64,000 bases of DNA from Paludibacter propionicigenes WB4 (GTDB lineage: Bacteria > Bacteroidota > Bacteroidia > Bacteroidales > Paludibacteraceae), in assembly GCF_000183135.1 (NCBI RefSeq), contig NC_014734.1:2976001-3040000 (forward strand). Direction: 5' to 3'. Below, in pieces: positions 14,379 through 59,000 of the stretch (the stretch's first letter is position 1; each line of letters opens with the position of its first letter). The notes beneath the pieces are model-generated. The model was given only the letters and a program-made list of their open reading frames with translations. It was not told the DNA's origin and did not search any database. The translations under genes were made by a program, and so were the position numbers.

Positions 14379-14524
14379 TTCTTAAAAGGGTTTCCTCGGT
14401 AGTCGAATAGGTGAACTAAAGAAAAAGATTGCATTTAAACCTCTCTGCAATCGCGGCTGTAAAAAGTTTCGACCCATTTGTGTACGTGGAACACATAAAT
14501 AATTTTAAATTTAAATAATAAAAA
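14379..14524 (+). promoter_or_regulatory. Structured leader before rpsD
   Basis: The longest gap in the alpha section. It can form GATTGCA (14427-14433) with TGCAATC (14446-14452), and ATTTGTGT (14476-14483) with ACACATAAAT (14491-14500). Because S4 is the classical repressor of the alpha operon, this is a reasonable candidate for an S4-type autoregulatory leader. That role is inference from position and folding by eye. Confidence 0.35.
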
Positions 14525-38339: not shown

Positions 38340-38376
38340 ATACATGAAATTGTTGAACAAATTAAGAGATATAAAT

Positions 38377-39285
38377 ATGAAAAAATATTTGATTGTTCCT
38401 TTAATCATACTCTTTACAGCTATACCAAGCGTAATGAAAGCGCAGCTTAACCAAGTGCCATTCTTTGATAGTAAAGGAAACGTAAGGCTCCAGACTACTG
38501 AGTTGGATGCTTTGGCTGATACTATTGCTAAAGTAAATCACCGAGCCGATGATGTTAGGTGGTCTCGGGTGGTATATAGGGTAATAGATATGCGTGAAAA
38601 GCAGAACTATCAACTTTACTTTCCAATGCGTGCAAGTGACGAGTATCGTAGTTTGTTTCGTGTAATGCTTGATGCTATTACTGATGGAATTACTGTCTAC
38701 AGACGTAATGCAAGAGACTTGAAGCCGCAGTTTCATGAAGAAGATAAACTTGTAGGTGATGAACTGTCAAAAGTGTTTGCCTACGATAATGATAATGATA
38801 ATAATCTCATTCAACAAGATTCTGTATCAAAAGAACTTAAAGTAAACACTGACCAATACTATAACTACGTAAAGAATCAGTTTAAATTTTTAGTACAAGA
38901 GATTGTTTTCTTTGATAAACATACATCCAGAATGTATTCTCAGATAATGGCTATAGCTCCATTATATGCATTGCATCCGGATAATACCAAATCAAAAAAA
39001 TCGATAAAATACTTTCAGGAATCAGTTTTATGTTGGTTCTTGTTTGATGAACTTCGTCCGTATTTAGCAAAACAGTATGTCATTCCTAACGGTAATGAGA
39101 CTCAACGTTTGACTTATGATGAGTTTTTTGCTCAAAAGCTATATTCAAGTTATTTGCTCGGTGATAGTAATATGTTCAACAGAATGCTTTTAGATTATGT
39201 TGTTGATCCGGTTAAGATTAAAAAAGAACAAGATCGATTAGAAACCGAATTGATGAACTTTGAACAGGATCTTTGGGAGTATTAA
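38377..39285 (+). CDS. porN: GldN/PorN type IX secretion ring protein
   Basis: 302 residues from ATG 38377, chosen because it yields a signal peptide (MKKYLIVPLIILFTAIPSVMKAQ). An in-frame ATG at 38344, 4 nt after porM, would add 11 residues and would make coupling closer. Typical stretches are DDVRWSRVVYRVIDMREKQNYQLYFP and SKKSIKYFQESVLCWFLFDELRPYLAKQYVIP. Partner of PorK in the periplasmic ring. Last gene of the cluster, closed by a terminator. Confidence 0.93.
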   Translation: MKKYLIVPLIILFTAIPSVMKAQLNQVPFFDSKGNVRLQTTELDALADTIAKVNHRADDVRWSRVVYRVIDMREKQNYQLYFPMRASDEYRSLFRVMLDAITDGITVYRRNARDLKPQFHEEDKLVGDELSKVFAYDNDNDNNLIQQDSVSKELKVNTDQYYNYVKNQFKFLVQEIVFFDKHTSRMYSQIMAIAPLYALHPDNTKSKKSIKYFQESVLCWFLFDELRPYLAKQYVIPNGNETQRLTYDEFFAQKLYSSYLLGDSNMFNRMLLDYVVDPVKIKKEQDRLETELMNFEQDLWEY

Positions 39286-39329
39286 TGGTATAAATTTGTT
39301 TCCACAAATTAGAAAACATTATAAAATAT

Positions 39330-39362
39330 AAAAAAAGACGACTGTTTGTCGTCTTTTTTTAT
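39330..39362. terminator. Intrinsic terminator after porN
   Basis: AAAAAAAGACGAC pairs with GTCGTCTTTTTTT, loop TGTTT, T7 at 39354-39360. Confidence 0.88.
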
Positions 39363-39392
39363 ATTGATAGGATTTAAACACGTAGAAAACAG

Positions 39393-42398: not shown

Positions 42399-43019
42399 AT
42401 GAATATAAAGGGTAAAAACAGTCAACAAAGAAGTACGGAAGCCGAACTTCTTTTACGTCTCCAACAAGGAGACGAGGAGGCTTTTGCCAGCTTGTTTTAT
42501 GCCTATAAAGATAAATTGTTGGGTTTTGCAATGGTTCTTACAAATTCATCGGTTCGTGCAGAAGATATGGTTCAGGATGTTTTTATGAAGCTGTGGCAAA
42601 ACAGAGCCAATATTGCCGACATCGAAAATATTAATGCGTTCATTTTTCGCATGGCACAGAATCAGGCAATTGATGAACTTCGCCGATTCTCAAAAGAAAC
42701 GCTTGCACATTCCTCTGAATTTATAAATGAGGAAGCTCTTAGTCCGAATCCTGCAGAATCTTTGTTAAATAAAGAAATTCGCGAAAAAATAAAAGAAGCA
42801 GTTGATCAACTGCCGCCTCAGCAAAAACGTATTTACATTCTTCATAACGAAGATGGTTATAAATATGAGGAAATAGCCTCAGAATTAAATCTTTCTGTTT
42901 CTACTATCCGAAACCATATGAGTCAGGCAATGGGAAATATCCGTAAACTTCTCTCATATTCTTACCCCGGAAATATCTTCATTTATTGGATTTTTTTAGC
43001 CGGATTTAGTTTATTCTAG
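42399..43019 (+). CDS. ECF sigma factor A (FecI-like)
   Basis: 206 residues. Region 2 (FASLFYAYKDKLLGFAMVLTNSSVRAEDMVQDVFMKLWQNR, about residues 30-72), region 4 with helix-turn-helix (LPPQQKRIYILHNEDGYKYEEIASELNLSVSTIRNHMSQA, about 135-180). After region 4 the protein ends in a hydrophobic tail (NIFIYWIFLAGFSLF). Strongly similar to sigma B at 53955, with long near-identical DNA stretches around 42449-42516. It should direct RNA polymerase to locus A and be held by the FecR protein that follows. Confidence 0.92.
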   Translation: MNIKGKNSQQRSTEAELLLRLQQGDEEAFASLFYAYKDKLLGFAMVLTNSSVRAEDMVQDVFMKLWQNRANIADIENINAFIFRMAQNQAIDELRRFSKETLAHSSEFINEEALSPNPAESLLNKEIREKIKEAVDQLPPQQKRIYILHNEDGYKYEEIASELNLSVSTIRNHMSQAMGNIRKLLSYSYPGNIFIYWIFLAGFSLF

Positions 43020-43145: not shown

Positions 43146-44177
43146 ATGAAAAGCGATAGATTAAATTATTTGATGCAGCGATACTTTGCTCAGGAGTGTA
43201 CTGCCGAAGAGAAAGAAGAACTGGCTTTGCTTATTGATGCTGTTAGAAATGAAGAACTAAAATCGCAGCTGTTAGAGCAATGGGAAAACTACAATTCTAA
43301 ATCAGTTTTGTCTGAGAATAAGACCCAACGGATATTACATGGTATTCTGACTTCTTCTGCCGCTGAGGAAACAGCGCCATTGAAAAATAAACCGCTCATA
43401 TTCCGATTCAGGACGATTGCTGCCGTAGCAGCTTCTGTTGTGATTTTATTATCGCTGGGACTATTCTTGCAGAAATCGGGAAACCCCGCTTCGGAGAAGA
43501 TAGTTGCAAAGACTCCAATGATTTCACCTCAACAACCTGCTTCATTTACCCGTAATGTTGTATTATCTGATGGTAGTACTGTGGTGCTGCGTGCCGGAAG
43601 TACAATCAATTATCCTCAGGCTTTTACAGGAAAAACCCGCGAAATAACCCTTGTGGGTGAAGCCTATTTCGACATAAAGCATGATTCCAGAAAACCTTTT
43701 ATCATTCACACCGGGTCGGTAAAAACTACTGTTCTAGGTACTGCTTTCGATATAAAGGCATGGGCAGGCCAAAAAGATGTAACCGTATCAGTGACACGCG
43801 GACGGGTAAAAGTGGAAAACGACTCGCGCTTACTGGCTGTGCTGAGTGTAAATCAAAGTGTGAGCTATAATACCGAAGCTAGTACAGCGAAACATGAAAC
43901 GGTGGATGCCGGAACGATTGTCAATACGTGGACCAAGCAAGATTTAGAATTCGACCATGTGCCATTCTCTTCCATCGCGTCTGCGCTGAGTAAACGATAC
44001 GGTGTAAACATTGAAATACCCGATCAAAAGATAGCCGGTACTTCCATTGTAACTTCATTTAGCGGAACGGAAAGTATTGAAGATGTATTGACCGTATTGT
44101 GTAAGATTACTTCCAATTGTGATTTTGAAATAAATAAGAATAATGTAACAATAAAAAGAACAGATAATACTAACTAA
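43146..44177 (+). CDS. FecR-family anti-sigma factor A
   Basis: 343 residues. A cytoplasmic sigma-binding N-terminus (about 1-85) is followed by a transmembrane segment at about 90-108 (TIAAVAASVVILLSLGLFL), a periplasmic FecR domain (about 140-240, LSDGSTVVLRAGSTINYP to VTRGRVKVEN) and a C-terminal DUF4974-type domain (about 262-343) that contacts the STN domain of the partner receptor. It should hold sigma A until the SusC-type receptor at 44347 signals substrate. 126 nt after sigma A. Confidence 0.92.
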   Translation: MKSDRLNYLMQRYFAQECTAEEKEELALLIDAVRNEELKSQLLEQWENYNSKSVLSENKTQRILHGILTSSAAEETAPLKNKPLIFRFRTIAAVAASVVILLSLGLFLQKSGNPASEKIVAKTPMISPQQPASFTRNVVLSDGSTVVLRAGSTINYPQAFTGKTREITLVGEAYFDIKHDSRKPFIIHTGSVKTTVLGTAFDIKAWAGQKDVTVSVTRGRVKVENDSRLLAVLSVNQSVSYNTEASTAKHETVDAGTIVNTWTKQDLEFDHVPFSSIASALSKRYGVNIEIPDQKIAGTSIVTSFSGTESIEDVLTVLCKITSNCDFEINKNNVTIKRTDNTN

Positions 44178-44249
44178 TAAAAGGGTGTCACAAAATGCAG
44201 TATAATTAAACTCAATAAGAATGTCGGCAACAATAGCCTCAAACGACAC

Positions 44250-44334
44250 TAAAAAAAATCCCTCCGCCCTGAGAAGCATTGGAGGGATTTAAAAAGGAGG
44301 TAAGAAAAAACAGTGCATTACTATTTTTTAAACT
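44250..44334 (-). ncRNA. Predicted antisense small RNA A over the susC A leader
   Basis: Predicted RNA of about 84 nt, opposite to the leader of the receptor gene. Its start is inferred about 7 nt after a minus-strand promoter (TTG 44371-44369, 21-nt spacer, TATCTTTG 44347-44340). It ends at an intrinsic terminator (stem 44290-44281 / 44265-44256, then a U-run made by A44258-A44251). The T-run exists only on the minus strand. It contains ACCTCCTT, complementary to an AAGGAGGT in the sense leader. Position and size fit the DonS-type antisense RNAs of Bacteroides loci. No expression evidence is available. Confidence 0.45.
44251..44290 (-). terminator. Minus-strand terminator between anti-sigma A and susC A
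   Basis: 10-bp stem AAATCCCTCC / GGAGGGATTT with a 15-nt loop. On the minus strand it is followed by T8, three of which lie in the stem. On the plus strand it is followed by AAAAAGG, so it is poor as a plus-strand terminator. Confidence 0.65.
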
Positions 44335-44339
44335 CATTG

Positions 44340-44371
44340 CAAAGATATGAAAAAGAAAAAGATAATATCAA
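44340..44371 (-). promoter_or_regulatory. Minus-strand promoter overlapping the susC A start
   Basis: TTG (44371-44369), 21-nt spacer, TATCTTTG (44347-44340), on the minus strand. It overlaps the ATG at 44347. Confidence 0.55.
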
Positions 44372-47300
44372 TTTTATTTGAATTTGTAATCAATAAAAAG
44401 ACGTTTTCAACTAGGGCTAATCATAGAGCTTATCGTTACAATGTTACACCCCCGATGCGTATAACCAGAATAAGTTTTCTTCTTGTTATGATGCTGTCTC
44501 TACACATAGGATTAAGTGCTCAGAGCTTGACGGACAAAGTTTCGTTTGGAATTAAACACCAAACGCTCGACAATGGACTTCAAACACTCGGTGAGCTTTC
44601 GGGATTTAAAATGTCCTATTCTGCCGATCAGGTTAGTCAGTATAAAAACATATCGGTGGAGAAGAAAACCCGAACGGTTGAAGCCACATTGAATCTCTTG
44701 CTTGCCAACACCACCTTAACTTTCGAAGCCGCTGGTAAAAACATTCTCATCGTAAAAAAGAATAAAGAGCAGGCTGCAAATTCTTCCTCCATTTTAATTT
44801 CGGGAACTGTAACTGATGCAGGGTCAGAATTATTACCCGGAGTTAGCATCCGCGTAAAAGGCAGTAATACAGGAACCATTACGGATGTGGATGGTAAATA
44901 TTCAATTGAAGTAGTAAAGGGAGACGTTCTGATACTATCATATCTGGGCTATAATCCAAAAGAGGTACAAGCAACGGCTAGTGGGGTGATCAATGTTTCA
45001 TTAACTCCAAACAGTGTACTCCTTTCCGAAGTTTCTGTTGTTTCAAATGGTTACCAGGTTGTTTCAAAGGAACGATCTACCGGATCGTTTGGTCATATAG
45101 GCAAAGAAAAGCTGTCAATTGCCAAATCGCCGGGAGTATTAGACAAAATTAAAGGTCAGGTTGCGGGATTACTTGTTGATACGCGCCATGGTGATGGAAC
45201 TTTTACTTATCGAAACGAACATACCGAAGGGTCTGCTTTGAATATAAGGGGGATTAATTCCTTACAATCGTTTTACGCTGACAGTTCTCCTTTAGTAGTT
45301 ATTGATGGGTTTCCAACCAGTTTTGACCTGACAACTTTAAACCCTGAAAACATTGAAGATATAACCTTTTTGAAAGATGCATCAGCAGCTTCAATTTGGG
45401 GAGCACGCGCGGCTAACGGTGTTATTGTTATTCGTACCAAAAAGGGCAATAAAAACACTCCTGTGTCTATCAACTTCTCAACAGTTTTATCTATGTCAGG
45501 AAAACCTGACTTGAAAAAATTTTCAACTTTGAACTCTTCTCAAACAATAGATTATGTTCAGGAAATGATTGGTTTGGGTAGAATTCAAGATCAAATAAAT
45601 GTGCCGCAACCCTTACCTTTGGATCAAGCTTCTGAACTTATTTTCCAAAATAAAAGAGGAGAAATAGACGATGCAACCTTGAATGCGAAACTCAATATTC
45701 TGCGCAATAGAAATGGTCTTAATCAGGTAGATAAATATTTGCTGAACAACCCATGGATGCAGCAATATAATATTTCTCTTACGGGAGGAAACGAAAATTC
45801 CAGCTATTATGTAAATGGTTCGTATGCCAAAGAGGCGCAAAGCACAAAAGGCAATCAATCGGATAGAGCTACAATAACAGCTAATAACGATTTCAAATTC
45901 TATGACCGTTTTACATTAACTACAAGGATTAATGCTACCTGGTTGAAGGATAAAAAAAATGGTATCGGACTAAACGCGTTGAATTCTGCAAATAAAACAT
46001 TGCATCCTTTTGATCAAATTGTAGATGAAACAGGAAAGCGGGTTCAACGATACCCCGCATATTTTTCGGGACGCGTAAAAAACCTTGAAAGCCTGGGTTA
46101 TCTACCTTGGGGATATAACGAACTCGATGAATTAGATAATAGTGACAACACCTCTAATCAGGATCTTATACAGGTTTCGACCAATCTGAATACAAAAATA
46201 GCAAAAGGATTAACGCTCGATTTGACTTACCGTTATGAAAGTAACGTTTATTCGACAGATAACTATTCCAATCAGTATACGTATGCAGCCCGCGACTTAG
46301 TAAACCACTATACATCACTAAATGCAGATAATGAATTGGTGTATGGTCTGCCAAAAGGAGGCTTATTCGATAATTCAATTGAGTCTTCAAAACAAAAAAG
46401 TTACAGGGCTCAATTAAATTTTGATAATACCTGGAAGGACCACATGTTTACAGCTATTGCCGGAACGGAACTGAGAAGTGTTGATGGTAAAGGCAAAACT
46501 TTTCGCTATTATGGTTACAACGATCAAACACAAACGCACTCGCCTATTGATTATGGAATCACAAATGCCTCCATGCCCTATAATGTAGACGGCTATCAGG
46601 AACCTGTTATTGATTATACTAACACCTCTGCTAATGTAGAGCGTTATTTATCTTATTATTCTAACGCTGCCTATACATACAAAAACAAATACACCGCTAG
46701 TGGAAGCATCCGTTTAGATGATTATAATTATTACGGAAGAAATGCAAATAACAATCCTAAACCCATGTACTCTACAGGATTGGCGTGGATGATAGGGAAA
46801 GAGGAATTTCTATCGAAGGCAAGCTTTATTGACCAGTTGAAACTTCGATTGTCCTATGGATTTAACGGCAACATTGTTCGCAATGTTTTTCCCTATACTG
46901 CAATGAGAATGGGGAATTATGACCCATACTCCAATGCTGTGGCAGGTATGATATACAGTGCTGCAAATCCGAATTTGAAATGGGAAAAAACAAAACAATT
47001 AAATTTTGGAATTGACTTTGCCTTTTTCAACAATATCCTTTCGGGTACAGTTGAATATTACGACAAACATAGTTCTGATTTAATTAAAGATGTTCTGGTG
47101 AACCCAACAAACGGTTTTGTTTCTATTCAAAAAAATGCATCATCAATGCAAGGTCATGGTGTTGATGTAACATTAAACCTTAAGGCTCTTGACCTAAAAA
47201 ATTATGGTTTGACGATAAACGCAAATTTTGCCTATAATACCCACAAAGTAACAGATGGCGATTTAATAGCTCCTTCTTATGTCTTCTATTCCAATATTCC

Positions 47301-47961
47301 CAACCTTTACGGATACCCTATTGATAATTTATTTGTATATCGATTTGCGGGTTTAGATGCGCAAGGTCAAAGTCAGGTGCTTGATAAAAATGGTAAGATA
47401 CTCACAATTAACGATGACGCTTCCACTATAAACGAACGTGTTTATGCCGGACGTACTTCCCCCCCCTATTTTGGAGGTGCTCAATTTTCTGCCAGAATCT
47501 ATAATTTCGATATCTCATTAATGACCTCATACAAATTCGGTCATAAGGCTTTGCGGAATGCATTGTTGGGAGTGCAGGCAGATTCTCAATACAGAGGTTA
47601 TCTGGTCGCAGATGCATCGTTAAACGACCGTTGGCGTAAGCCCGGTGACGAACAAAACACAAATGTTCCGGGGATGGAATATCTTACTGCTGCATCATTA
47701 ACCCGTTATCAGGAATCGGATATTAATGTTTTAAATGCCAGCCAAATTCGCTTAGAACAACTTAGTGTAAGCTATACTTTGCCAGAGAAACTTATCAATA
47801 AAAAAGTAATTAAAGGCATGAGTTTATCTGCTTCAGTTAGAAATCTGGGTGTCATTGTTTTCAACAAATATGGAATAGATACTGATTATCAATCCAGTTT
47901 AATTTCAGGCGTTTTACCCTTAGCTAAAACCTATGTGTTTAGTTTAAATATTAATTTATAA
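44347..47961 (+). CDS. SusC/RagA-type TonB-dependent receptor A with STN domain
   Basis: 1204 residues. A long basic N-region precedes the hydrophobic signal core, with cleavage near Gln59 (LSAQ). A start at ATG 44455 (MRITRISFLLVMM) would give an ordinary signal. The upstream start is preferred by analogy with receptor B. After cleavage come an STN secretin/TonB signalling domain (about 63-135), a carboxypeptidase-regulatory-like domain (about 148-230, SGTVTDAGSELLPGVSIRVKG), a plug (about 240-380, ALNIRGINSL then LVVIDGFP and AASIWGARAANGVIVIRTKKG) and a TonB-dependent barrel ending LNINL. Imports a bulky substrate with the SusD partner and signals to FecR A. Confidence 0.93.
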   Translation: MKKKKIISILFEFVINKKTFSTRANHRAYRYNVTPPMRITRISFLLVMMLSLHIGLSAQSLTDKVSFGIKHQTLDNGLQTLGELSGFKMSYSADQVSQYKNISVEKKTRTVEATLNLLLANTTLTFEAAGKNILIVKKNKEQAANSSSILISGTVTDAGSELLPGVSIRVKGSNTGTITDVDGKYSIEVVKGDVLILSYLGYNPKEVQATASGVINVSLTPNSVLLSEVSVVSNGYQVVSKERSTGSFGHIGKEKLSIAKSPGVLDKIKGQVAGLLVDTRHGDGTFTYRNEHTEGSALNIRGINSLQSFYADSSPLVVIDGFPTSFDLTTLNPENIEDITFLKDASAASIWGARAANGVIVIRTKKGNKNTPVSINFSTVLSMSGKPDLKKFSTLNSSQTIDYVQEMIGLGRIQDQINVPQPLPLDQASELIFQNKRGEIDDATLNAKLNILRNRNGLNQVDKYLLNNPWMQQYNISLTGGNENSSYYVNGSYAKEAQSTKGNQSDRATITANNDFKFYDRFTLTTRINATWLKDKKNGIGLNALNSANKTLHPFDQIVDETGKRVQRYPAYFSGRVKNLESLGYLPWGYNELDELDNSDNTSNQDLIQVSTNLNTKIAKGLTLDLTYRYESNVYSTDNYSNQYTYAARDLVNHYTSLNADNELVYGLPKGGLFDNSIESSKQKSYRAQLNFDNTWKDHMFTAIAGTELRSVDGKGKTFRYYGYNDQTQTHSPIDYGITNASMPYNVDGYQEPVIDYTNTSANVERYLSYYSNAAYTYKNKYTASGSIRLDDYNYYGRNANNNPKPMYSTGLAWMIGKEEFLSKASFIDQLKLRLSYGFNGNIVRNVFPYTAMRMGNYDPYSNAVAGMIYSAANPNLKWEKTKQLNFGIDFAFFNNILSGTVEYYDKHSSDLIKDVLVNPTNGFVSIQKNASSMQGHGVDVTLNLKALDLKNYGLTINANFAYNTHKVTDGDLIAPSYVFYSNIPNLYGYPIDNLFVYRFAGLDAQGQSQVLDKNGKILTINDDASTINERVYAGRTSPPYFGGAQFSARIYNFDISLMTSYKFGHKALRNALLGVQADSQYRGYLVADASLNDRWRKPGDEQNTNVPGMEYLTAASLTRYQESDINVLNASQIRLEQLSVSYTLPEKLINKKVIKGMSLSASVRNLGVIVFNKYGIDTDYQSSLISGVLPLAKTYVFSLNINL

Positions 47962-47973
47962 AGCGATAATAAG

Positions 47974-49365
47974 ATGAAAACAAAATATATTTTTAGCATA
48001 TTCTTTTTAGCCGTTTTTATGGCTTTGCCTTCGTGCAAATCATTTGTTGAAGAAAACCCGAAAGGACAGATGATTCCCGAGAACACTGAAGATTACCGAT
48101 ATCTACTGAACTATTCAGCTGTTTTTGTCAACGGGTACGGAAACAATGAATTCGGAACTGATGATATTGATTTGAACCAAGAAAATGTAACGGGTATTCT
48201 TAGTGGAATAGAATCTTCTGTAAACTATTATACATTCAAAAAAGATTTATTTACAGCTGCTTTATCTGACGAAGAATGGACTTTTTTATATCAACAGGTT
48301 TTTTATTGTAACGTTGTTCTCACCGAGGTTATGAATTCTAAGAATGGAACTGATGCCGAGAAAAACGAATTATATGCCGAAGCTCTTGTGCATCGTGCTT
48401 ATGCATATTGGGTATTGGTAAATCAATATTCTAAAATGTATAATGCTTCTACTGCAGCAACGGATGCAGGTGTACCAATGCCTACAGAACCGGTAATAAA
48501 TAAAAATTTAACCCGCGCTTCCGTTAAAACTGTTTACGATGCTATTTTAAAAGATGTTCTATACGCTGCCGAAATTTTACCAAACAAACAGCCGAACAAA
48601 CTTTATCCGTCTAAAGCTGCAGCTTACGCACTTCTTTCCCGCATCTATCTTATTATGGATAATTACTCGCAATCGGCTATTTACGCCGAAAAGACACTGT
48701 CCATACAAGATTCATTGACAAATCTGAACGACTTTGTAGATGATCCTTCGTTGTTGCCTCGCAAAATAGCAAACCCTGAATTATTGATCATAAAAAACTC
48801 ATCATTCAATGTATATGCTTTACCATTTCGCTTAAGCGAAGATTTGCTTAATACTTATACTGATGGTGATTTGCGTTATCAGCTTCTTATACAAGATGGA
48901 CAAACAGGAGCAAATATTGGCTCTTTAAATTTCGATGGAAAAGCCTTTGTGCGTTCAAAACTTAATGGCGAAGATATGAACACAGGACTTACCATTCCCG
49001 AAGTGTATCTGAACCTGGCCGAATGCTATGCCCGTCTTGGAGATATGGACAAAAGTCTGCATTACCTAAACAAACTGCTGGTGAACAGATATTCGACAGA
49101 TTCATTTACCGATGTTACTGCTACTTCAAAGGAAGAATTACTTGCTACAGTTCTTCTCGAACGTAGAAAGGAGTTACTCGGCAATGGAATGCGTTGGTTT
49201 GATTTGCGTCGATTGAATAAAGAACCTCAATTTGCCAAAACGGTTACACATATCTACCGGGGTACTAGTTACACACTTGAGCCTAATTCGGCAAATTACA
49301 TTTTCCCAATAGATACGAAAGTTATAAAGCTGAATCCCGAAATAACACAAAACGAGCGTAATTAA
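47974..49365 (+). CDS. SusD/RagB-family nutrient-binding lipoprotein A
   Basis: 463 residues. Lipoprotein signal with Cys21 (VFMALPSC), a helical TPR-like scaffold, and typical stretches NTEDYRYLLNYSAVF, AEALVHRAYAYWVLVNQYSKMY, PSKAAAYALLSRIYL and ERRKELLGNGMRWFDLRRL. It forms a lid over the SusC-type receptor on the cell surface and binds substrate. Starts 12 nt after the receptor gene, so cotranscribed. The ligand cannot be told from sequence, but locus content points to peptides. Confidence 0.92.
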   Translation: MKTKYIFSIFFLAVFMALPSCKSFVEENPKGQMIPENTEDYRYLLNYSAVFVNGYGNNEFGTDDIDLNQENVTGILSGIESSVNYYTFKKDLFTAALSDEEWTFLYQQVFYCNVVLTEVMNSKNGTDAEKNELYAEALVHRAYAYWVLVNQYSKMYNASTAATDAGVPMPTEPVINKNLTRASVKTVYDAILKDVLYAAEILPNKQPNKLYPSKAAAYALLSRIYLIMDNYSQSAIYAEKTLSIQDSLTNLNDFVDDPSLLPRKIANPELLIIKNSSFNVYALPFRLSEDLLNTYTDGDLRYQLLIQDGQTGANIGSLNFDGKAFVRSKLNGEDMNTGLTIPEVYLNLAECYARLGDMDKSLHYLNKLLVNRYSTDSFTDVTATSKEELLATVLLERRKELLGNGMRWFDLRRLNKEPQFAKTVTHIYRGTSYTLEPNSANYIFPIDTKVIKLNPEITQNERN

Positions 49366-49386: not shown

Positions 49387-50493
49387 ATGAAATTTTCAAT
49401 TAAAGCAGCATGCTTGCTGCTTATACTACTTAATACTGCCGGTTTATCAGCGCAAAATGCTAAAAACTACGTTGTTAATACGTCGCTTTCGAATAAAAAA
49501 GGAGGATATGTCAAACTTTTTTATAACTACAACAACGCAATTCAAACTGATTCAATTGTCTTTAAAGATGGGCTATTCTCCTTTAATATTAAAGGAGAAA
49601 AAGATAAAAAAGCGATTTTAAATTTGTATGTAGATAACGCAGAAGCAAAAGCGTACAATTTTTATCTCGACAAAGACACTATTAATATTAAAATAGAGAG
49701 TCCGGATGAATTACCAAAGGTTGATGGAGGAGCTCTGAATGCTCAATGGACCAATCTTCAGCTACAAACAAGCCCATTTTTAGCTCAATTTAAAGAGATT
49801 GATGCTGAATATTATGCTGCCGATTCGATAAAGCAAAAAAGTGAACCGTTTCTGGACGCATTGGTTGAAAGATCGAGATCTATAAAGAATAAAATAAACG
49901 AGGTTTACAAAGCTTTTATAAAAGAAAACCCTACTTCACAGGTTAGTCCCGAAATTTTCCTGGACATTTATTCAACCGACGAAAAGGATGGATTATATCC
50001 TTATTATAAAATGCTTCCGGAGGAATATCGAAACGATGATTTTATGAAAATTGTTGGTGAAGATTTAAGCGCTTACGAGAAAACTGCAATAGGTAATCTA
50101 GCTCCTGATTTTAAAAGCGTAGACTCTAATGGAAAACCGGTTACGCTATCAAACTTTCGGGGTAAATATGTATTATTAGATTTTTGGGCATCCTGGTGTG
50201 TTCCTTGCCGCAAAGAAAATCCCGAAGTAGTGAAAGCTTACGCACAATGGAAAGACAAGAAATTTACTGTTATCAGTGTTTCCATAGATGTTGCGGAAGG
50301 CGATAAAGCATGGAGAGCTGCATTTACAAAAGATAAACTTGTATGGACAAATATCCGCGAACCGAAGATTGGAACGAGTTATAGTGTAAGCTCCATACCT
50401 CAAAACTTTCTTATCGACCCCAATGGAAAGATTATTGCCAAAGAACTCAGAGGTAAATATCTGCACCAAGAACTAGAAGAAATTCTAAAATAA
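49387..50493 (+). CDS. TlpA-like thioredoxin-fold protein A
   Basis: 368 residues. Signal peptide (MKFSIKAACLLLILLNTAGLSAQ). An N-terminal DUF4369-like beta domain (about 28-115) is followed by a helical linker and a C-terminal AhpC/TSA-TlpA domain (about 235-368) with redox motif Cys271-Val-Pro-Cys274 in DFWASWCVPCRKENPEV and the cis-Pro loop SIPQNFLIDPNG. Predicted periplasmic thiol-disulfide oxidoreductase. It may reduce disulfides in imported peptides, which is inference from the M16 peptidase next door. 21 nt after susD A. Confidence 0.88.
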   Translation: MKFSIKAACLLLILLNTAGLSAQNAKNYVVNTSLSNKKGGYVKLFYNYNNAIQTDSIVFKDGLFSFNIKGEKDKKAILNLYVDNAEAKAYNFYLDKDTINIKIESPDELPKVDGGALNAQWTNLQLQTSPFLAQFKEIDAEYYAADSIKQKSEPFLDALVERSRSIKNKINEVYKAFIKENPTSQVSPEIFLDIYSTDEKDGLYPYYKMLPEEYRNDDFMKIVGEDLSAYEKTAIGNLAPDFKSVDSNGKPVTLSNFRGKYVLLDFWASWCVPCRKENPEVVKAYAQWKDKKFTVISVSIDVAEGDKAWRAAFTKDKLVWTNIREPKIGTSYSVSSIPQNFLIDPNGKIIAKELRGKYLHQELEEILK

Positions 50494-50703: not shown

Positions 50704-53511
50704 ATGAAAACAAATAAACTACTTGCGATACTGACAACTGTTACCATATTACTTGGTAGCTCAGGCAGCTTGTTGGCACAATCGCCTGCTCTGTTGCCTC
50801 TTGACTCCGCCGTCACTGTTGGTCATCTGCCTAACGGTTTCACCTATTACATCCGCAAAAATGCAGAGCCTCAAAACCGGGTTGTTCTGTATCTCGCAAA
50901 CAAAGTGGGTTCTATTCTCGAAGATGACGACCAACAAGGTCTGGCTCACTTTGTTGAACACATGAGTTTTAATGGAACCAAACATTTTCCTAAAAACGAA
51001 TTGGTCAGCTATCTGCAAAAAGCCGGAGTTCGTTTTGGCGGTGACTTGAATGCCTACACCAGTTTTGACGAAACTGTATATCAATTGCCTTTGCCAACTG
51101 ATAATCCTGAATTACTAAAGAACGGTTTCCAAATTATGCGCGACTGGGCTCACGAAGCCTTATTCGATTCGTTGGAAATTGAAAAAGAACGTGGTGTTAT
51201 CCTGGAAGAAAAGCGGTTGGGTAAAAGTGCACAAGAACGCATGCAAAATAAATACTTCCCGTTTATTATGAATCAATCAAAATACAGTAAACGTATTCCG
51301 ATTGGTACAGAAGAGATTTTGAAAAATTTTAAACCTGCCACAATCCGTCGATTCTATAATGACTGGTACAGACCCGATTTGCAAGCATTAATTGTTGTAG
51401 GGAATATTGATGTCAAAGAAACAGAGAAAACGATTATCGAATTGTTCTCAGATCTTAAAGCACCTGCACATCCAAGAGCTCGTACAGAATACACTATTCC
51501 GCTTAGTCAGAAAAATCAGTTTCTAACGGTTACTGATAAAGAATTTCCGGTTACTGCCATTCAGGTAATGAGCAAATTCACAGGAAATCAATTAAAAACT
51601 ACCGTAGACTATCATCAAACCATTCTGAGAGCGTTATACAATCAAATCATTGGTGCCCGTTATAATGAATTGAGTCAACAACCTAATCCACCTTTTCTTC
51701 AAGCTGAAAACTATATAAATAATTTTATGGCCAATCTTCTTACAACTTCTACTACAATAGTTGGAAAGCAAGGTGAACTGGAGAAAGGATTTAAAGCTGC
51801 CTGGACTGAAATAGAACGTGCAAAAAAATACGGATTTACAGAAACAGAACTAGCCCGTGCTAAAGATGTTTTACTATCTGGTATGGAGTCGGCATACAAC
51901 GAACGAGACAAAACGGCTTCAGTAAGTTATGCTAATGAATACCTGAATTTATTTCTTAAAGGTGAGGCTTCGCCCGGCGTTGGTTACGAGTATAATTACT
52001 ATAAAAATGACCTGAGCAAAATAACGCTCTCGGAAATAAATGAGCTTATCAAAGAATACCTGACAGATAAAAACCGGGATATTCTGGTTTTAAGTTCAGA
52101 ACAGGAAAAAGCGAACTTGCCAACTGACGAAACAGTCTATAAATGGATAACAGATGTGCAAAATAGTAATATCAGTGCTTATGTGGATAATGTTTCTGAA
52201 AAGCCATTGCTCTCGCAAAAAATCGCTGGCGGTAAAATCATTTCAGAAAAGAAAGATGAAAAAATTGGAATTACTACTCTGTCTCTTAGTAATGGTGTGA
52301 AAGTAGTTCTCAAACCTACTAATTATAAGAATGATGAAATCCATTTCTATGCGTATAGTCCCGGAGGTTATTCTCTGTGTAAAGATTCCGAATACGAATC
52401 GGCTATACATGCATCTTCCCTTGCCAGCTATGGTGGCGTTGCCGATTATAGTTTAAATCAATTAGAAAAATATCTGTCAGGTAAAAAAGTTAGCGTTTCT
52501 CCATTCATTGGTGCTCGTTACGAAGGTTTCACCGGTTTTAGTTCTCCTAAAGAATTAGAGACCGCTCTTCAATTGGTTTATTTATATTTCACACAACCAC
52601 GGAAAGATACAGCAGTTTACAAAGGAATGATTCAACTGGAAAGAGAAAGCTTAATAAACCGCAATAGCGATCCGTCCACTGTATTTTCAGATACTATTTC
52701 GGCTGTTTTGGGATGTTACAACTTTAGATATACTCCGCCAAGCAACGAAAAACTGGACAAAATAAATCTCGATCGTGCTTTCGAAATCTATAAAGATAGA
52801 TTTGCGGATGCCAGCGATTTCAATTTTATACTTGTGGGTAATTTTGATGTTACTACCATTAAACCGCTTCTTGAACAATACCTGGGTGCACTACCTACAA
52901 TTAAACGTGTCGAAAAGGCCCGCGATTTGAAGATTGTTATTCCTTCAGGAAAAATTGAGAAAAAAGTATTCAAAGGAGAAGAACAAAAATCAACAGTTCA
53001 GTTGGTATTTAGCGGTGATTATCAATATAACATCACAGAGAACGATAACCTTCTGGCACTTTCTGAAGTTCTTGACATTAGATTGATAAACCGTTTGCGC
53101 GAAGATGAGAGTGGCGTTTACGGTGTTGGCGTTAATGCTTCTTACGAGAAATATCCGCGAAACCGTTACACATTTACTGTTGCTTTTGGCTGTGCTCCCG
53201 AAAATGTGGATAAGCTAATTAATTCAACTCTCGATGAAATTAGAAAAATCAGAGAAAACGGAGCTACTCAGGAGGAGATAAATAAAGTTATAGCTGAAGA
53301 ACGACGCGCAATCGAAGTTCAATCAAAAGAGAACGGCTTCTGGATAAATTATTTATCAGATAAATATCAAAATAATGAGAACCCGGATAAGATTCTTGCA
53401 ATTCAGGATCGCCTTAATAAAATAACAACTAAAACAGTAAAACTATCAGCTAATAAACATTTATCAGGAAAAAACCTCATTCGTTTTGTGCTCTATCCTG
53501 AGAAAAAATAA
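50704..53511 (+). CDS. M16-family zinc metallopeptidase (pitrilysin type)
   Basis: 935 residues. Signal peptide ends near LLAQ (residue 26). The inverted zinc motif HFVEH (His82, His86, base Glu85) is in the first M16 unit, with further acidic ligands in the ERGVILEE segment (residues 162-169). The second half repeats the M16 fold without zinc ligands, as usual for single-chain clamshell members. It cleaves oligopeptides enclosed in its chamber, probably in the periplasm. The 210-nt gap after the TlpA-like gene holds a hairpin, so it may be expressed partly independently. Confidence 0.92.
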   Translation: MKTNKLLAILTTVTILLGSSGSLLAQSPALLPLDSAVTVGHLPNGFTYYIRKNAEPQNRVVLYLANKVGSILEDDDQQGLAHFVEHMSFNGTKHFPKNELVSYLQKAGVRFGGDLNAYTSFDETVYQLPLPTDNPELLKNGFQIMRDWAHEALFDSLEIEKERGVILEEKRLGKSAQERMQNKYFPFIMNQSKYSKRIPIGTEEILKNFKPATIRRFYNDWYRPDLQALIVVGNIDVKETEKTIIELFSDLKAPAHPRARTEYTIPLSQKNQFLTVTDKEFPVTAIQVMSKFTGNQLKTTVDYHQTILRALYNQIIGARYNELSQQPNPPFLQAENYINNFMANLLTTSTTIVGKQGELEKGFKAAWTEIERAKKYGFTETELARAKDVLLSGMESAYNERDKTASVSYANEYLNLFLKGEASPGVGYEYNYYKNDLSKITLSEINELIKEYLTDKNRDILVLSSEQEKANLPTDETVYKWITDVQNSNISAYVDNVSEKPLLSQKIAGGKIISEKKDEKIGITTLSLSNGVKVVLKPTNYKNDEIHFYAYSPGGYSLCKDSEYESAIHASSLASYGGVADYSLNQLEKYLSGKKVSVSPFIGARYEGFTGFSSPKELETALQLVYLYFTQPRKDTAVYKGMIQLERESLINRNSDPSTVFSDTISAVLGCYNFRYTPPSNEKLDKINLDRAFEIYKDRFADASDFNFILVGNFDVTTIKPLLEQYLGALPTIKRVEKARDLKIVIPSGKIEKKVFKGEEQKSTVQLVFSGDYQYNITENDNLLALSEVLDIRLINRLREDESGVYGVGVNASYEKYPRNRYTFTVAFGCAPENVDKLINSTLDEIRKIRENGATQEEINKVIAEERRAIEVQSKENGFWINYLSDKYQNNENPDKILAIQDRLNKITTKTVKLSANKHLSGKNLIRFVLYPEKK

Positions 53512-53729: not shown

Positions 53730-53912
53730 ATTTGCTGTTATTCATGTTGCGTAAAATATTATTATTCGGTATGTTTATACCATGAAAGAGGTATTTCAAT
53801 ATCGCAAAATACTCCCTAAATTTGCATGGGTAAGAAAATGCATATTATTACCATTTTTAATCAAAAACGAAGTTTTAAGTTTGCAATATATACGATATTG
53901 AATATATAATTG

Positions 53913-53920
53913 TACTTTTG
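53913..53920 (+). promoter_or_regulatory. -7 box before sigma gene B
   Basis: TACTTTTG, 34 nt before the ATG at 53955, mirroring the box before sigma gene A. Confidence 0.55.
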
Positions 53921-53954
53921 CAATCATTACAATTATTTTGCTTCCAAAAAGATA

Positions 53955-54581
53955 ATGAAAACCGACTTTAATAATATAAAGCAACAGGAAAGAGAGCTTC
54001 TTTTACGTCTCCGGGATGGAGATGAGAAGGCTTTTGCCAGCTTGTTTTATGCATATAAAGATAAGTTGTATGGTTTTCTTTTTGGTATGACTAAGTCGGA
54101 TGCGAAAGCTAAAGATCTGGTTCAGGATGTTTTTCTTAAAGTCTGGCAAAACAGAGCTAATATGGCTGAAATAGACAATTTCAATGCTTATATTTATTCT
54201 GTAGCTCAGAATCAGGCTGTTGATCAGTTTCGTAAATCTTCCAAAGAGTTGTTTTCCAACGTAGAACTGTTGAACTCGCAGGAAGCCGATGTAACTCCTG
54301 ACCCTGTCAGTGCCCTGATAAATAAGGAAACCCGGGAAAAAATAGATGAAGCGGTAAACCAATTGCCGCCGCAACAAAAGAAAATATTCGTTCTTCATAA
54401 CGAATATGGATTCAAGCATCATGAAATTGCCGAGCAATTAAATATCTCCGTTTCTACAACTCAGAATCACATGAGGGAAGCTTTAAAGAATATTCGTATT
54501 TTTCTTTCTCATTCTTATTTTTTCTTTACGATTCTTGCCCTTAATGTAATTCATCTTCTCTCCGTTTTATTCCAAAAATGA
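53955..54581 (+). CDS. ECF sigma factor B (FecI-like)
   Basis: 208 residues from ATG 53955, which lies downstream of the -7 box. The longer frame starts inside the promoter. Region 2 is FASLFYAYKDKLYGFLFGMTKSDAKAKDLVQDVFLKVWQNR and region 4 is LPPQQKKIFVLHNEYGFKHHEIAEQLNISVSTTQNHM. It also ends in a hydrophobic tail (YFFFTILALNVIHLLSVLF, about 187-206). Close paralog of sigma A. Region 4.2 recognition helix differs (STTQNHMREA against STIRNHMSQA), which suggests different promoters. Confidence 0.92.
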   Translation: MKTDFNNIKQQERELLLRLRDGDEKAFASLFYAYKDKLYGFLFGMTKSDAKAKDLVQDVFLKVWQNRANMAEIDNFNAYIYSVAQNQAVDQFRKSSKELFSNVELLNSQEADVTPDPVSALINKETREKIDEAVNQLPPQQKKIFVLHNEYGFKHHEIAEQLNISVSTTQNHMREALKNIRIFLSHSYFFFTILALNVIHLLSVLFQK

Positions 54582-54807: not shown

Positions 54808-55842
54808 ATGACCAACACAATGGAAACAGGTAGAATTCAGTACTTATTGAAAAAGTATCTTTCTCAGAATTGTAACTCCGACGAGAAAAAAGAACTTAAT
54901 TTATTGATTAATTCCTTGCAGGATGAAGATCTTAAAGCTGAGTTTCGGGCACTCTGGACTAATTATTCTTCTGAACTGACTTTGTCGGAAGAAGATTCGC
55001 AGGATATATTAGCTAATATTCTATCCGAAAAGAAAAATCTGAATCTGGATCAACGAAGAACTAACAGGCGTTCTGTTTACCTCAGGGCTATCTCCGTGGC
55101 AGCTTCATTGCTAATTCTGGTTTCAATCGGAATTTACGTTCGGAAGAATAAGGGTTTGAACGAATCAGGTGCTGTAATAGCCAAAGCTGTTCTGGTTTCG
55201 CCCGACAAGGCAACTACCTATACACGTACTATTGTTTTACCTGACGGAAGTAGTGTGGTTTTACATGCCGGTAGTACTATTGACTATCCGAGGACATTTG
55301 GAGGGAAAACCCGCGAGATAACTCTAGTTGGTGAAGCTTACTTTGATGTGAAGCACGACTCCCAAAGACCATTTATTATTCATACAGGCGCTGTAAAAAC
55401 CACCGTTTTGGGAACTGCCTTTGATATTAAGGCCTGGCCTGATCACAAGAATATTATAGTTTCTGTAACCCGTGGAAAGGTTCGGGTGGAGAATGATAAG
55501 AAAGTATTAGCTGTGTTGACCATTAACCAGCAGATTAACTACGATGTTCAGAATACAACGGCTAAACAACACAAAGTTAATAGTGATGAGATTGTTAGTA
55601 GTTGGGCGAAACAAGATCTTGACTTTGATGGAGCAACATTTGAATCGATTGCTCAGGTGTTGAGTAAACGTTATGGAAAAGATATATCTATTGGTAATGT
55701 TCAATTAGCCAAAACGCAAATTGTATCTTCATTTGCCGGTACAGAATCTCTGGAAAATATACTTGATGTGCTTTGTACTATTAACTCCGATGCACAATTT
55801 GAAGAGAAAAATAATGAAATTATTATATCGAATAAAAATTAA
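54808..55842 (+). CDS. FecR-family anti-sigma factor B
   Basis: 344 residues from ATG 54808. ATG 54820 (METGRIQYLLKKYL) is equally likely. Cytoplasmic N-terminus, transmembrane segment about 94-111 (AISVAASLLILVSIGIYV), periplasmic FecR domain (LPDGSSVVLHAGSTIDYPRTF to VTRGKVRVEN), and a C-terminal DUF4974-type domain. Closely similar to anti-sigma A, especially in the FecR domain (TREITLVGEAYFD.KHDS). Partner of sigma B and receptor B. Confidence 0.92.
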   Translation: MTNTMETGRIQYLLKKYLSQNCNSDEKKELNLLINSLQDEDLKAEFRALWTNYSSELTLSEEDSQDILANILSEKKNLNLDQRRTNRRSVYLRAISVAASLLILVSIGIYVRKNKGLNESGAVIAKAVLVSPDKATTYTRTIVLPDGSSVVLHAGSTIDYPRTFGGKTREITLVGEAYFDVKHDSQRPFIIHTGAVKTTVLGTAFDIKAWPDHKNIIVSVTRGKVRVENDKKVLAVLTINQQINYDVQNTTAKQHKVNSDEIVSSWAKQDLDFDGATFESIAQVLSKRYGKDISIGNVQLAKTQIVSSFAGTESLENILDVLCTINSDAQFEEKNNEIIISNKN

Positions 55843-55896: not shown

Positions 55897-55935
55897 AAAA
55901 AAAATCCCTCTGCCGTAGGAAGCTCCGAGGGATTT
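55897..55935 (-). terminator. Minus-strand terminator between anti-sigma B and susC B
   Basis: 9-bp stem AAATCCCTC / GAGGGATTT with a 16-nt loop, followed on the minus strand by T8 (complement of A55897-A55904, three in the stem). The plus side continues AAGTC without a T-run. Same design as at 44251-44290. Confidence 0.65.
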
Positions 55936-55969
55936 AAGTCAAAAAAATCCATAATAAATTTTTATAACT
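55897..55969 (-). ncRNA. Predicted antisense small RNA B over the susC B leader
   Basis: Predicted RNA of about 73 nt, start inferred from the minus-strand promoter at 55975-56002 and end from the terminator at 55897-55935. The minus strand resembles RNA A in layout: TATCTTTG box, an AU-rich middle with AAAAAT and ATG, then U6-7, then the AAATCCCTC hairpin and U8. Complementary to the receptor B leader. Confidence 0.42.
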
Positions 55970-55974
55970 GCATA

Positions 55975-56002
55975 CAAAGATATGAAAAAAAAGATTATAC
56001 AA
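55975..56002 (-). promoter_or_regulatory. Minus-strand promoter overlapping the susC B start
   Basis: TTG (56002-56000), 17-nt spacer, TATCTTTG (55982-55975) on the minus strand. It overlaps the ATG at 55982 exactly as in locus A. Confidence 0.5.
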
Positions 56003-59000
56003 GCGGTATATACGTTAGATTTTTTAGGTAAATTAGTAGACTTAAGTTCTGCAATCAATTTTAAGCGCAAACGGTTTTATGTGCTATTGTGCTTGATGCT
56101 TGCAGGTCAACTGTTTTTCACAACAACGGGTTATGCTCAGTCGTTGGAAACTAAAATTACATTTGAATTACATGATAAAACTTTACAGCAGGGACTTAAT
56201 GAATTAGCAAAACGTTCCGGTTTTAGGGTGGCATATACATTGCCTCAGGTTTCAAGTTATACCAACATTACGGTACCAAAAGACAATCGTACTGTAAGAG
56301 AAACGTTGGGATTATTATTGGCAAATACCTCGCTTACATATACTTTGAAGGGTAAAAGTATTTTGGTTTTTGAAAAAGCGAGAGCCAAGTCGACGTCGGA
56401 TAACTCTAAGTTTTTACTGTTTGGAACTGTGACCGATTTGGAATCAGATCCTTTACCCGGAGTAAGTGTTCGGGTAAGGGGCAGTGACAAAGGAACTATT
56501 ACAGATGAAAATGGAAGATATTCAATTGAAGTAGAAAAAGGAGATATAATACTCCTTTCTTATATAGGCTTTAATCCAAGAGAGATTATGGCAAAAACCG
56601 ATGGTGAATTTAATGTTTCGTTGACTCCAAATCAAATTTCGCTGTCAGAGGTTTCGGTGGTGTCTACAGGTTATCAAACACTTCCTAAGGAAAGAGCAAC
56701 AGGATCTTTTGGAACAATCAGTGCCAAAGATTTGGGCAAAAGTTCAAATGCTAATATCCTACAACGGATAGAAGGTTTGGTTCCCGGTATGCAGATATCA
56801 CTAACCGGAGGAGACCGCTCTTTTGATTATAACACTAATGGGAAATCAATAAGTTCGGATGTGCGAACTGTAGGGGCGACCGATTACAACGTAATAATAA
56901 GGGGAAGCAGTACGTTTTCAGGAGAAAAATTTCCCTTGCTTGTAGTGGATGGAGCTATTTCAGAAATGGATATTTCTAACTTCAACCCAAACGATATTGA
57001 AAATATCACGGTGTTGAAAGATGCTGCTGCAGCTTCGATATGGGGAGTTCGTGCTGCCAATGGAGTTATTGTGCTTACAACAAAGAAAGGTGTAATGAAC
57101 CATGCTCCTCAGATAAACTTTTCATCCAGCTTTATGGTTGCAGATAAGCCTGATTTAGGATATCTGAAAACGATGAATTCCGCTCAGCAGCTTAGTTATG
57201 AGAAAGAGTTAGTAGATAGGGGATTCATTACTTCTATGCCTGCTACATCCTATTATACAGCTCAATATCTGATGAGTGATGGAACAAATTTAGCGCTTAA
57301 GCTAAAATCCGGTGCGATTAGTCAATCTGACTATGATGCAGCTATAAAAAACATGAGCAGTATTGACAATAAGTCTCAAATAAATAAATATCTACTTCAA
57401 CCGGCAACCAGTCAGCAGTATAACTTATCGGTAAGTGGTGGTACAAATAATTCACGTTATTTCTATTCGACATCATACAGCAATGAAAACCCTAATATCA
57501 AAGGTAACTCTGCAGATCGGATTACTCTGACGTTGAATAATAGTTGGAAATTATTTAATTGGGCGACTTTTTCTACTAATCTAAAAGGAACTTTCTTTAC
57601 CTATAAGAATAATGGTTTAGGACTTTCTTCTTTATTTCTTCCAAGTGCTAGCACACTCATGCCGTATAGTCTATTGGCAGATAATAACAATAAAAGTATA
57701 TCGTACGCTAGATTAGATCCGACCTGGACGGGTGCGTTATCTCCGGTTTATAAAGACTGGACTTATAATTATCTGGACGAACTGGCAAATGCGGATAATC
57801 TTCAGAAAAATGATAATTACCTTGGTACGATAAATTTGCAGATGCCTCTTTTGTTTGGTGTAAAGGCTTCGTTGCAATATACGTTGGAAAGAACCTATAG
57901 CCAAGCACAAAACTTTCTCAATCAGAATACCTATTATTTCCGAAATTTAGTTAACTATTATACTTATTCAACGGCCGCTAACAATAGCTTAGGAATTACA
58001 AATGGAGGTGTTTTAAAGCAAAGTAATACGAACGAAAACAATCATAGTTTACGTGGGCAATTAGACTACGACCACCTTTTCAATGGTATCCATCAAATTT
58101 CGGCTTTAGCCGGTATGGAGATGCGTGAAACCAATATGAGCCAATCAGGTTTTTCCTTATACGGTTATAATAAGGAAACAGGGTTCACGAACTCCAATAT
58201 TAACTACAGTAATACACCTACTTATGCATACGTAGCCGGATCTACACCTACTTCGTATACTACATTTACAGATGGTGGTTATCCATCTCAATACGATAAA
58301 AGACGTAGATTTTTATCGTACTATAGCAATGTAGCATATGCTTTACTGGATCGCTATTCTTTGTCAGCGAGTGTTCGTTACGATGATTATAACAATTTTG
58401 GATTGGATAGAAAATACAGAGCAACTCCTTTGTGGTCTTCAGGGCTGAAGTGGATATTGAGCAAAGAATCATTTATTCAGAAGCAATCGTGGATAAATAA
58501 TCTGGCTTTCCGCAGTTCCTTTGGGGTGAACGGTAATTTATCATTATCCACTTATCCATTTACAAATATTGGGATGTCAAGTTCCGATCAAGCTACAGGA
58601 CAAGCATATGCAACCTTAATTGCAATGGCGAATCCTCAGTTGAGATGGGAAAAAACCTATGTAACTAATTTAGGACTGGATTTCAGTTTATTTAGTCGCA
58701 GACTAAATGGAGGAATCGATTTTTATAACAAAAGAGGTAAAGATTTACTATATTCCTATTACCCTATTAGTAGTGTTTATGTAGGTACTGTTGCTGGTGG
58801 TACACTTACCCGCAATATGCTTTCAATGAATTCGAAAGGTGTTGATCTGAACTTAAATGGTATTGTTCTGACTAATAAGGACTGGCAATGGAATGTTGGA
58901 GGAACATTTTCGTATAATACCAATAAAGTAACGGATGCACGTTTTATTCCAAGTCTCTATACAAGCTCCTACAGTATGTCACCTATGAGTATTGGTGTTT

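Follow-up and report, generated by a model that had tools for sequence, protein, structure and literature searches.

We consider it likely that the leader of a SusC-type receptor gene (susC A) of Paludibacter propionicigenes WB4 carries, on the minus strand, a gene for a DonS-type cis-antisense RNA which would keep a FecR-controlled receptor operon silent. The reading is drawn from sequence. A promoter-like box is placed exactly on the start codon of the receptor gene, a strand-specific terminator co-occurs with it, and the element is better kept than its flanks, a pattern that argues for selection. Coordinates refer to the window, which is the whole stretch of 64,000 nucleotides that was analysed. 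The element at susC A has the following parts (B and C are paralogous loci of the same genome, G012 and G013 two further genomes of the genus):

44340 to 44347, minus strand: antisense -7 box TATCTTTG (TAnnTTTG), read directly, overlapping the susC A start codon
44369 to 44371, minus strand: TTG, a candidate -33 element separated from the -7 box by 21 nt; paralogues and relatives do not conserve it
44251 to 44334, minus strand: predicted antisense RNA A of about 84 nt, 5' end inferred from the box spacing
44256 to 44290, minus strand: terminator hairpin, read directly, stem kept with a two-sided change in G013
44251 to 44258, minus strand only: T8 tract; T8 occurs in all five homologous elements (A, B, C, G012, G013)

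The first base of TATCTTTG is, on the minus strand, the complement of the A of the ATG at 44347. An earlier note on this DNA had proposed a complete minus-strand promoter over the start codon, and both the box and a TTG 21 nt upstream of it are present. However, the TTG is not conserved: it is absent at B and C and, among the matches listed for genus and order, is found at a spacing of 20-21 nt in 2 of 23 box-bearing sites, which counts against the antisense RNA reading. The promoter call is thus carried by the -7 box, which is of the Bacteroidota housekeeping type. At most sites this box is immediately preceded by a T-rich stretch, owing to the A-rich first codons of these receptors. A generic promoter scan returned a weak sigma-70-like match at 44371-44342, among 61 found versus 43.4 expected; the generic scan omits the antisense terminator of susC A, probably because loops are limited to 8 nt.

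The terminator that the same note had placed on the minus strand is there, with the hairpin at 44290-44256 and T8 at 44258-44251. At this hairpin, the plus strand has only TTT, then AAAAA, and the T-run is therefore strand-specific. The proposed size of about 84 nt also holds by geometry, counted from the inferred start at 44334 to 44251. Predicted RNA A folds into two hairpins (-22.9 kcal/mol, z -3.4). It is the promoter box and not the RNA that covers the start codon: the predicted RNA begins about 13 nt before the ATG of susC A, extends to about 96 nt before it and leaves the ATG itself uncovered. The first in-frame ATG was used as the start codon; as A and C have a downstream ATG before the signal-peptide core, the true susC start is an assumption. 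When the 64 kb window was scanned with Rfam 15 at gathering scores, no family was found at the antisense element, and the only one listed was an S4-Bacteroidia ribosomal protein leader (RF03139, 47.5 bits) at 14427-14459 on the plus strand.

The annotated genes of locus A, and the genes and antisense cassette of locus B, are:

42399 to 43019, plus strand: ECF sigma factor gene A (Pfam and NCBIfam)
43146 to 44177, plus strand: FecR anti-sigma factor gene A (Pfam PF04773 and PF16344)
44347 to 47961, plus strand: susC A, TonB-dependent receptor (TIGR04056, 586.6 bits)
47974 to 49365, plus strand: susD A (domain search)
49387 to 50493, plus strand: TlpA/AhpC-like thioredoxin protein with DUF4369 (domain search)
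50704 to 53511, plus strand: M16 peptidase (domain search)
53910 to 54581, plus strand: ECF sigma factor gene B (start codon provisional)
54808 to 55842, plus strand: FecR anti-sigma factor gene B (FecR search)
55982 to 59674, plus strand: susC B (SusC search)
55975 to 55982, minus strand: antisense -7 box of the paralogous cassette B (sequence)
55897 to 55969, minus strand: predicted antisense RNA B of about 73 nt (5' end inferred, fold z -3.3)

The ECF sigma factor, FecR, SusC and SusD are encoded in this order at A, B and C. The match of SusC A to the STN domain is weak (25.1 bits, below the cut-off of 28.4). Of 50 SusC matches in the genome, 20 are homologues that exceed the family cut-off. 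There are also four FecR genes, three of which lie behind an ECF sigma gene and are followed by a susC gene. All three FecR-followed susC genes carry the cassette, versus none of the 17 others; among the latter, one has a weak minus-strand hairpin that lacks a box, and in two others a box with no terminator lies 11-12 nt into the gene. In each of the three carriers, the first base of the box coincides with the A of the ATG, and the terminator is present. Receptor protein identity is 39% between A and B and 34% between A and C, and the leader DNA is 71% identical over 118 nt (A-B) and 73% over 116 nt (A-C). The inferred RNAs have lengths of 84 nt (A), 73 nt (B) and 74 nt (C), each folds better than its shuffles (z -3.3 to -4.2), and they have the 3' hairpin and its loop GCTT in common. 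An antisense RNA gene, as the earlier note had predicted, is still the best reading of the element at susC A, box and terminator being kept together in paralogues and relatives; the amendment is that it is one of three such cassettes in the genome. The fourth FecR gene (L038:979-3573, genome 2626978-2629572) is followed by a gene for a protein of 341 aa which has no Pfam match at 1e-5 and, by eye, a signal peptide and an STN-like part; this protein may be a minimal FecR partner.

The hairpin and loop shared by the three RNAs would fit a role mainly in trans, in which they cross-regulate the three paralogous receptors or act on other mRNAs. However, pairing with the cognate leader has a predicted net interaction energy of -80 to -100 kcal/mol, compared with only -17 to -27 kcal/mol for the other two leaders. 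Action should therefore be mainly in cis, and we regard a trans role as very improbable.

It was also considered whether an AT-rich leader yields a promoter-like box and a hairpin by chance. Boxes alone are common (the two strands of the window hold 93 TAnnTTTG), and in AT-rich genomes some antisense promoters can be mere noise, according to PMC7366714. A strict definition was used for the combination: TAnnTTTG, then within about 125 nt a stem of 8 bp or more, including four or more GC pairs, and a run of six or more T. The 64 kb window has three such pairs on both strands together, at susC A, at susC B (55982) and at 39291 on the plus strand, versus none in any of 20 windows resampled by a first-order Markov model. 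In the adjoining 18 kb (L039), the sole pair is that at susC C. As the cassette occurs at all three FecR-linked receptors and also in two other species of the genus, chance is hardly a credible explanation. The pair on the plus strand (39291-39365) consists of a TAnnTTTG box and, beyond it, a strong hairpin with A7 on one side and T7 on the other; it lies just after an ORF at 38344-39285. It is probably a bidirectional terminator and less likely a small RNA.

Close relatives of the cassette are few. A sequence-structure model of the three cassettes detected them in two further genomes, G012 and G013, among 48 of the genus, and in none beyond the own genome in a family sample of 150, where stricter filters apply over 40 genomes. 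A degenerate exact-pattern scan of the contig collection returned two loci, L190 (G013) and L191 (G012), both from MAGs, and a close-relative protein scan of the same collection with SusC A found none. The sequence family of the cassette is thus narrow, and any wider claim therefore rests on geometry and not on homology.

Within this narrow family the element is well kept. In a gapped alignment of locus C with G012, 84 of 87 positions are identical in the noncoding element (the 87 nt before the ATG), as are 26 of 27 nt in codons 1-9 and 129 of 153 in codons 10-60. The next 300 nt match in 227 of 302 columns (75%) and the 600 after that in 346 of 646; upstream, the leader before the element matches in 34 of 56 columns (61%) and the last 300 nt of fecR in 223 of 306. 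As the flanks match less, conservation peaks from T8 to about the expected -33 region. Codons 1-60 differ by 10 silent and 11 replacement codons. TATCTTTG is identical in A, B, C, G012 and G013. A comparison of the sequences revealed that G013 has the stem ATCCCCCTT/AAGGGGGAT in place of ATCCCTCC/GGAGGGAT, with one T-A pair changed to C-G, and that T8 and TATCTTTG are kept despite the changed stem. On the other hand, its RNA folds only modestly better than shuffles (z -1.8), which counts against the RNA reading. In a SusC tree with midpoint root, the five carriers and genome G023 group together (SH-aLRT 97). In G023 the box reads TATCTTTA and the hairpin is weak and without a long T-run; box and hairpin are both decayed in this clade member, which likewise counts against the RNA reading.

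Further upstream, susC A and G013 have a block AATGTCGG..ACGACAC in common, which lies before the A-run (window 44220-44250; about 1628-1657 in L042), and B, C, G012 and G023 carry ATAC(A/T)TC instead. Both blocks are candidate sense promoters for ECF sigma factors. The first was rejected as the ECF promoter of the sense mRNA, being absent from B, C and G012. Its two-end pattern was likewise set aside: it has three matches in the window, with two mismatches each and 1.6 expected, and the spacing misfits A's own copy.

The geometry of a box on the SusC start codon extends beyond this family. The genus set comprised 48 genomes, 47 of them with FecR, and the 141 loci among the matches listed gave 147 FecR frames, 120 FecR-SusC pairs and 116 unique leaders (117 in an alternative pairing). 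Among these matches, 11 of 116 leaders have the box at offset 0 relative to the first ATG, versus 25 boxes at the 120 other offsets within 60 nt; one further leader (L096) has it at a later in-frame ATG, which brings the box leaders of the genus matches listed to 12. With the own genome and the model hits removed, 6 of 111 leaders among the matches listed still have the box at offset 0 (shuffle mean 0.57, maximum 4 in 2000). For the order Bacteroidales, FecR occurs in 103 of 149 genomes, and 70 loci among the matches listed gave 60 unique leaders. The box is at offset 0 from the SusC ATG in 11 of these, and 120 other offsets together account for 6 boxes. A phylum sample of 30 loci gave 19 leaders, with the box at offset 0 in one (L270) and elsewhere in one; L270 is of the same class and comes from another order. 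It counts against a general role that a box placed exactly at the start is missing from 105 of 117 genus and 49 of 60 order leaders (among the matches listed) and from 18 of 19 phylum leaders. As most sampled FecR-SusC pairs lack it, the exact cassette is not obligatory. On the SusC tree, the 12 carriers among 115 rows (among the matches listed) require 8 changes, 7 of them forced by supported branches. This is fewer than the shuffled mean of 11.6, so that the geometry is clustered, yet with repeated gain, loss or relocation.

Box and minus-strand terminator also go together in the wider class. Among the genus matches listed, 9 of the 12 leaders with a box have a minus-strand terminator within 140 nt, versus 8 of the 76 without (Fisher 7e-6); with the own genome and the model hits left out, the numbers are 4 of 7 versus 8 of 76 (Fisher 0.007). 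The window for terminators was extended from 140 to 200 nt after two had been seen further out, and it is the 140 nt genus count that serves as evidence; at 200 nt, the numbers are 11 of 12 versus 10 of 76 for the genus and 10 of 11 versus 5 of 21 for the order (both among the matches listed), and 1 of 1 versus 1 of 13 for the phylum sample. The counts for leaders with no box omit those that are too short (29 of 105 in the genus, 28 of 49 in the order, 5 of 18 in the phylum sample). In FecR-SusC leaders of two further genomes, G038 (L168) and G042 (L163), TATCTTTG precedes the ATG by 11 and 31 nt, and a minus-strand terminator (T7 and T8, respectively) lies further upstream; this is possibly the same device with the promoter off the start codon.

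These leaders have to be weighed against a reading in which the element serves the plus strand only, as a 5' mRNA hairpin (stabiliser, attenuator or protein site) together with an A-rich ribosome-entry stretch CAAAGATATG, the minus-strand promoter look being a by-product. In its favour, the plus strand can form the hairpin as well (-13.5 kcal/mol), and translation in Bacteroidota is aided by A-rich sequence ahead of the start codon. Yet T-runs follow the hairpin on the minus strand alone, and box and minus-strand terminator co-occur. Plus-strand terminators were found in 0 of 12 box leaders versus 8 of 76 others in the genus, and in 0 of 11 and 0 of 21 in the order (among the matches listed). 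In AAAnnTATG leaders, the C which completes TTTG is present in 11 of 13 cases in the order and 11 of 17 in the genus (among the matches listed) and in 1 of 2 in the phylum sample, although C makes up only 15-19% of the leaders across the sets (18% in the order and 15% in the genus, among the matches listed). This enrichment speaks against a plus-strand reading because a ribosome-entry signal would not need that C. Finally, no antisense box was found at FecR start codons (0 of 137 in the genus, 0 of 70 in the order, 0 of 207 together, among the matches listed). We consider it improbable that the element serves the plus strand only.

An alternative that accepts the antisense promoter is that it works through transcription, by collision or promoter occlusion, and not through pairing of the RNA with the mRNA. 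The promoter faces the sense unit and sits over the start codon, which the RNA leaves uncovered, and no common terminator stem sequence was seen in the wider class, so that a specific RNA surface may be unneeded. Against this, the RNA body is conserved within the clade (the 84 of 87 positions between C and G012), RNAs A, B and C fold better than shuffles, and papers citing the DonS study credit the RNA with lowering susC (available excerpts of PMC7366714 and PMC10994844). Interference by transcription is therefore a less favoured, though not negligible, explanation.

By analogy to DonS, we infer that the predicted RNA would repress susC by pairing. In such a scheme, the housekeeping sigma factor would make the RNA of about 84 nt by default, and the RNA would pair over its whole length with the susC leader. 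The pairing might block ribosome loading or cause leader RNA to be degraded, and this would include transcripts that read through from the sigma-fecR genes. Silencing of such read-through is plausible, as inspection of the fecR-susC interval revealed no plus-strand terminator at any of the three loci. When the ligand of the receptor frees the ECF sigma factor, strong sense transcription would run through the antisense promoter, overcome the RNA and shut the antisense promoter down. The outcome would be a sharper off/on switch.

As for the substrate, the earlier note had pointed to a TlpA-like protein and an M16 peptidase in place of glycan enzymes, and this agrees with the Pfam results for locus A; no glycan enzymes were found by Pfam among the proteins scanned at A, B and C. 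At locus B, the genes for SusC, SusD, a TlpA-like protein and a hydrolase that is cut by the window end are followed by those for an M16 peptidase and a TlpA-like protein. At locus C, the order is SusC, SusD, TlpA-like protein, an enzyme of the serine-dehydratase-alpha family and DsbD. The locus in G013 encodes SusD, a TlpA-like protein, a protein with a PNGase F C-terminal domain, a further TlpA-like protein and a member of the serine-dehydratase-alpha family. With TlpA-like thioredoxins, M16 peptidases, DsbD and the serine-dehydratase-family enzyme as neighbours, uptake of peptides (perhaps cysteine-rich) or thiols at these loci is plausible. A box-bearing locus in another genome (G034, L165/L178) encodes a GH20 enzyme, and the antisense device is therefore not tied to one kind of substrate. 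From 42399 to 64000 of the window and through positions 1-18000 of L039, three sigma/FecR/SusCD units follow one another. The same stretch encodes four TlpA-like proteins, two M16 peptidases, DsbD and a serine-dehydratase-alpha-family protein, and it is a possible island for acquisition of peptides, cysteine or disulfides.

A more general reading is offered with more doubt than confidence. An antisense promoter may be locked on the start codon of FecR-controlled receptor genes throughout the Bacteroidales and, in at least one case, beyond this order, with CAAAnnTATG as box and start at the same time. It would insulate the operon from sigma/anti-sigma read-through, would be switched off by sense induction, and would occur at peptide/thiol as well as glycan loci.

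The comparison with known systems is based on excerpts of the papers cited. DonS was described in Bacteroides fragilis by Cao et al. 2016 (via PMC7366714, PMC10994844 and PMC9723704) and is one of a family of antisense RNAs of 78-128 nt that are divergent to susC homologues and lower them (PMC7366714); one DonS-like RNA was shown to repress its PUL in B. fragilis (PMC7366714, PMC10994844, PMC9723704). As the earlier note had suggested, RNA A agrees with the description in PMC7366714 in position, orientation and size: it is a short divergent RNA, antisense to a susC start, and its 84 nt are within the range of 78-128 nt, while the inferred 73-74 nt of RNAs B and C are just below it. Another difference is that DonS, in these sources, is found at mucosal-glycan PULs and the Paludibacter element at TlpA/M16 loci; association with mucosal-glycan PULs is a property of the described DonS examples rather than of the mechanism. 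Among the papers listed by literature searches, with excerpts of PMC11697453, PMC10861873, PMC9788703 and PMC13370916 consulted as well, none was recognised as reporting such an RNA outside Bacteroides or the exact overlap of antisense box and susC start codon, though the original DonS paper may well describe this overlap already.

In B. thetaiotaomicron, ten further DonS-like RNAs were reported, five of them shown by Northern blot (PMC7366714), and the number of PUL-associated antisense RNAs has been raised to 32 (PMC10994844). They have the same orientation at susC homologues as the Paludibacter RNAs, but were seen as transcripts, while ours are predicted from sequence; the excerpts say nothing about a box that overlaps the start codon exactly, nor about conservation of such an overlap. 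Pairs of antisense RNA and PUL in this organism exhibit both anticorrelation and positive correlation (PMC10994844), and the canonical sigma-ABfr motif accompanies 52% of all its cis-antisense candidates, PUL-linked or not (PMC7366714). Antisense RNAs are reported for 15 PULs of B. fragilis, and 287 antisense regions are listed for Flavobacterium psychrophilum (PMC9723704). FopS pairs close to the start codon and thereby represses translation of SusC (PMC11697453). FopS and GibS (same source) nevertheless represent a different arrangement: FopS is a multicopy family that acts on several PUL mRNAs, whereas each predicted Paludibacter RNA is fully complementary to the leader of its own locus.

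Those who mapped the antisense RNAs at Bacteroides nutrient loci raised the question of whether they are functional or partly transcriptional noise, and cautioned that some may be noise (available excerpt of PMC7366714). The comparative pattern described here gives a simple rule for predicting such RNAs from genome sequence. It also places the antisense device at loci for thioredoxin-like proteins and peptidases in a rice-field anaerobe, outside gut glycan use.
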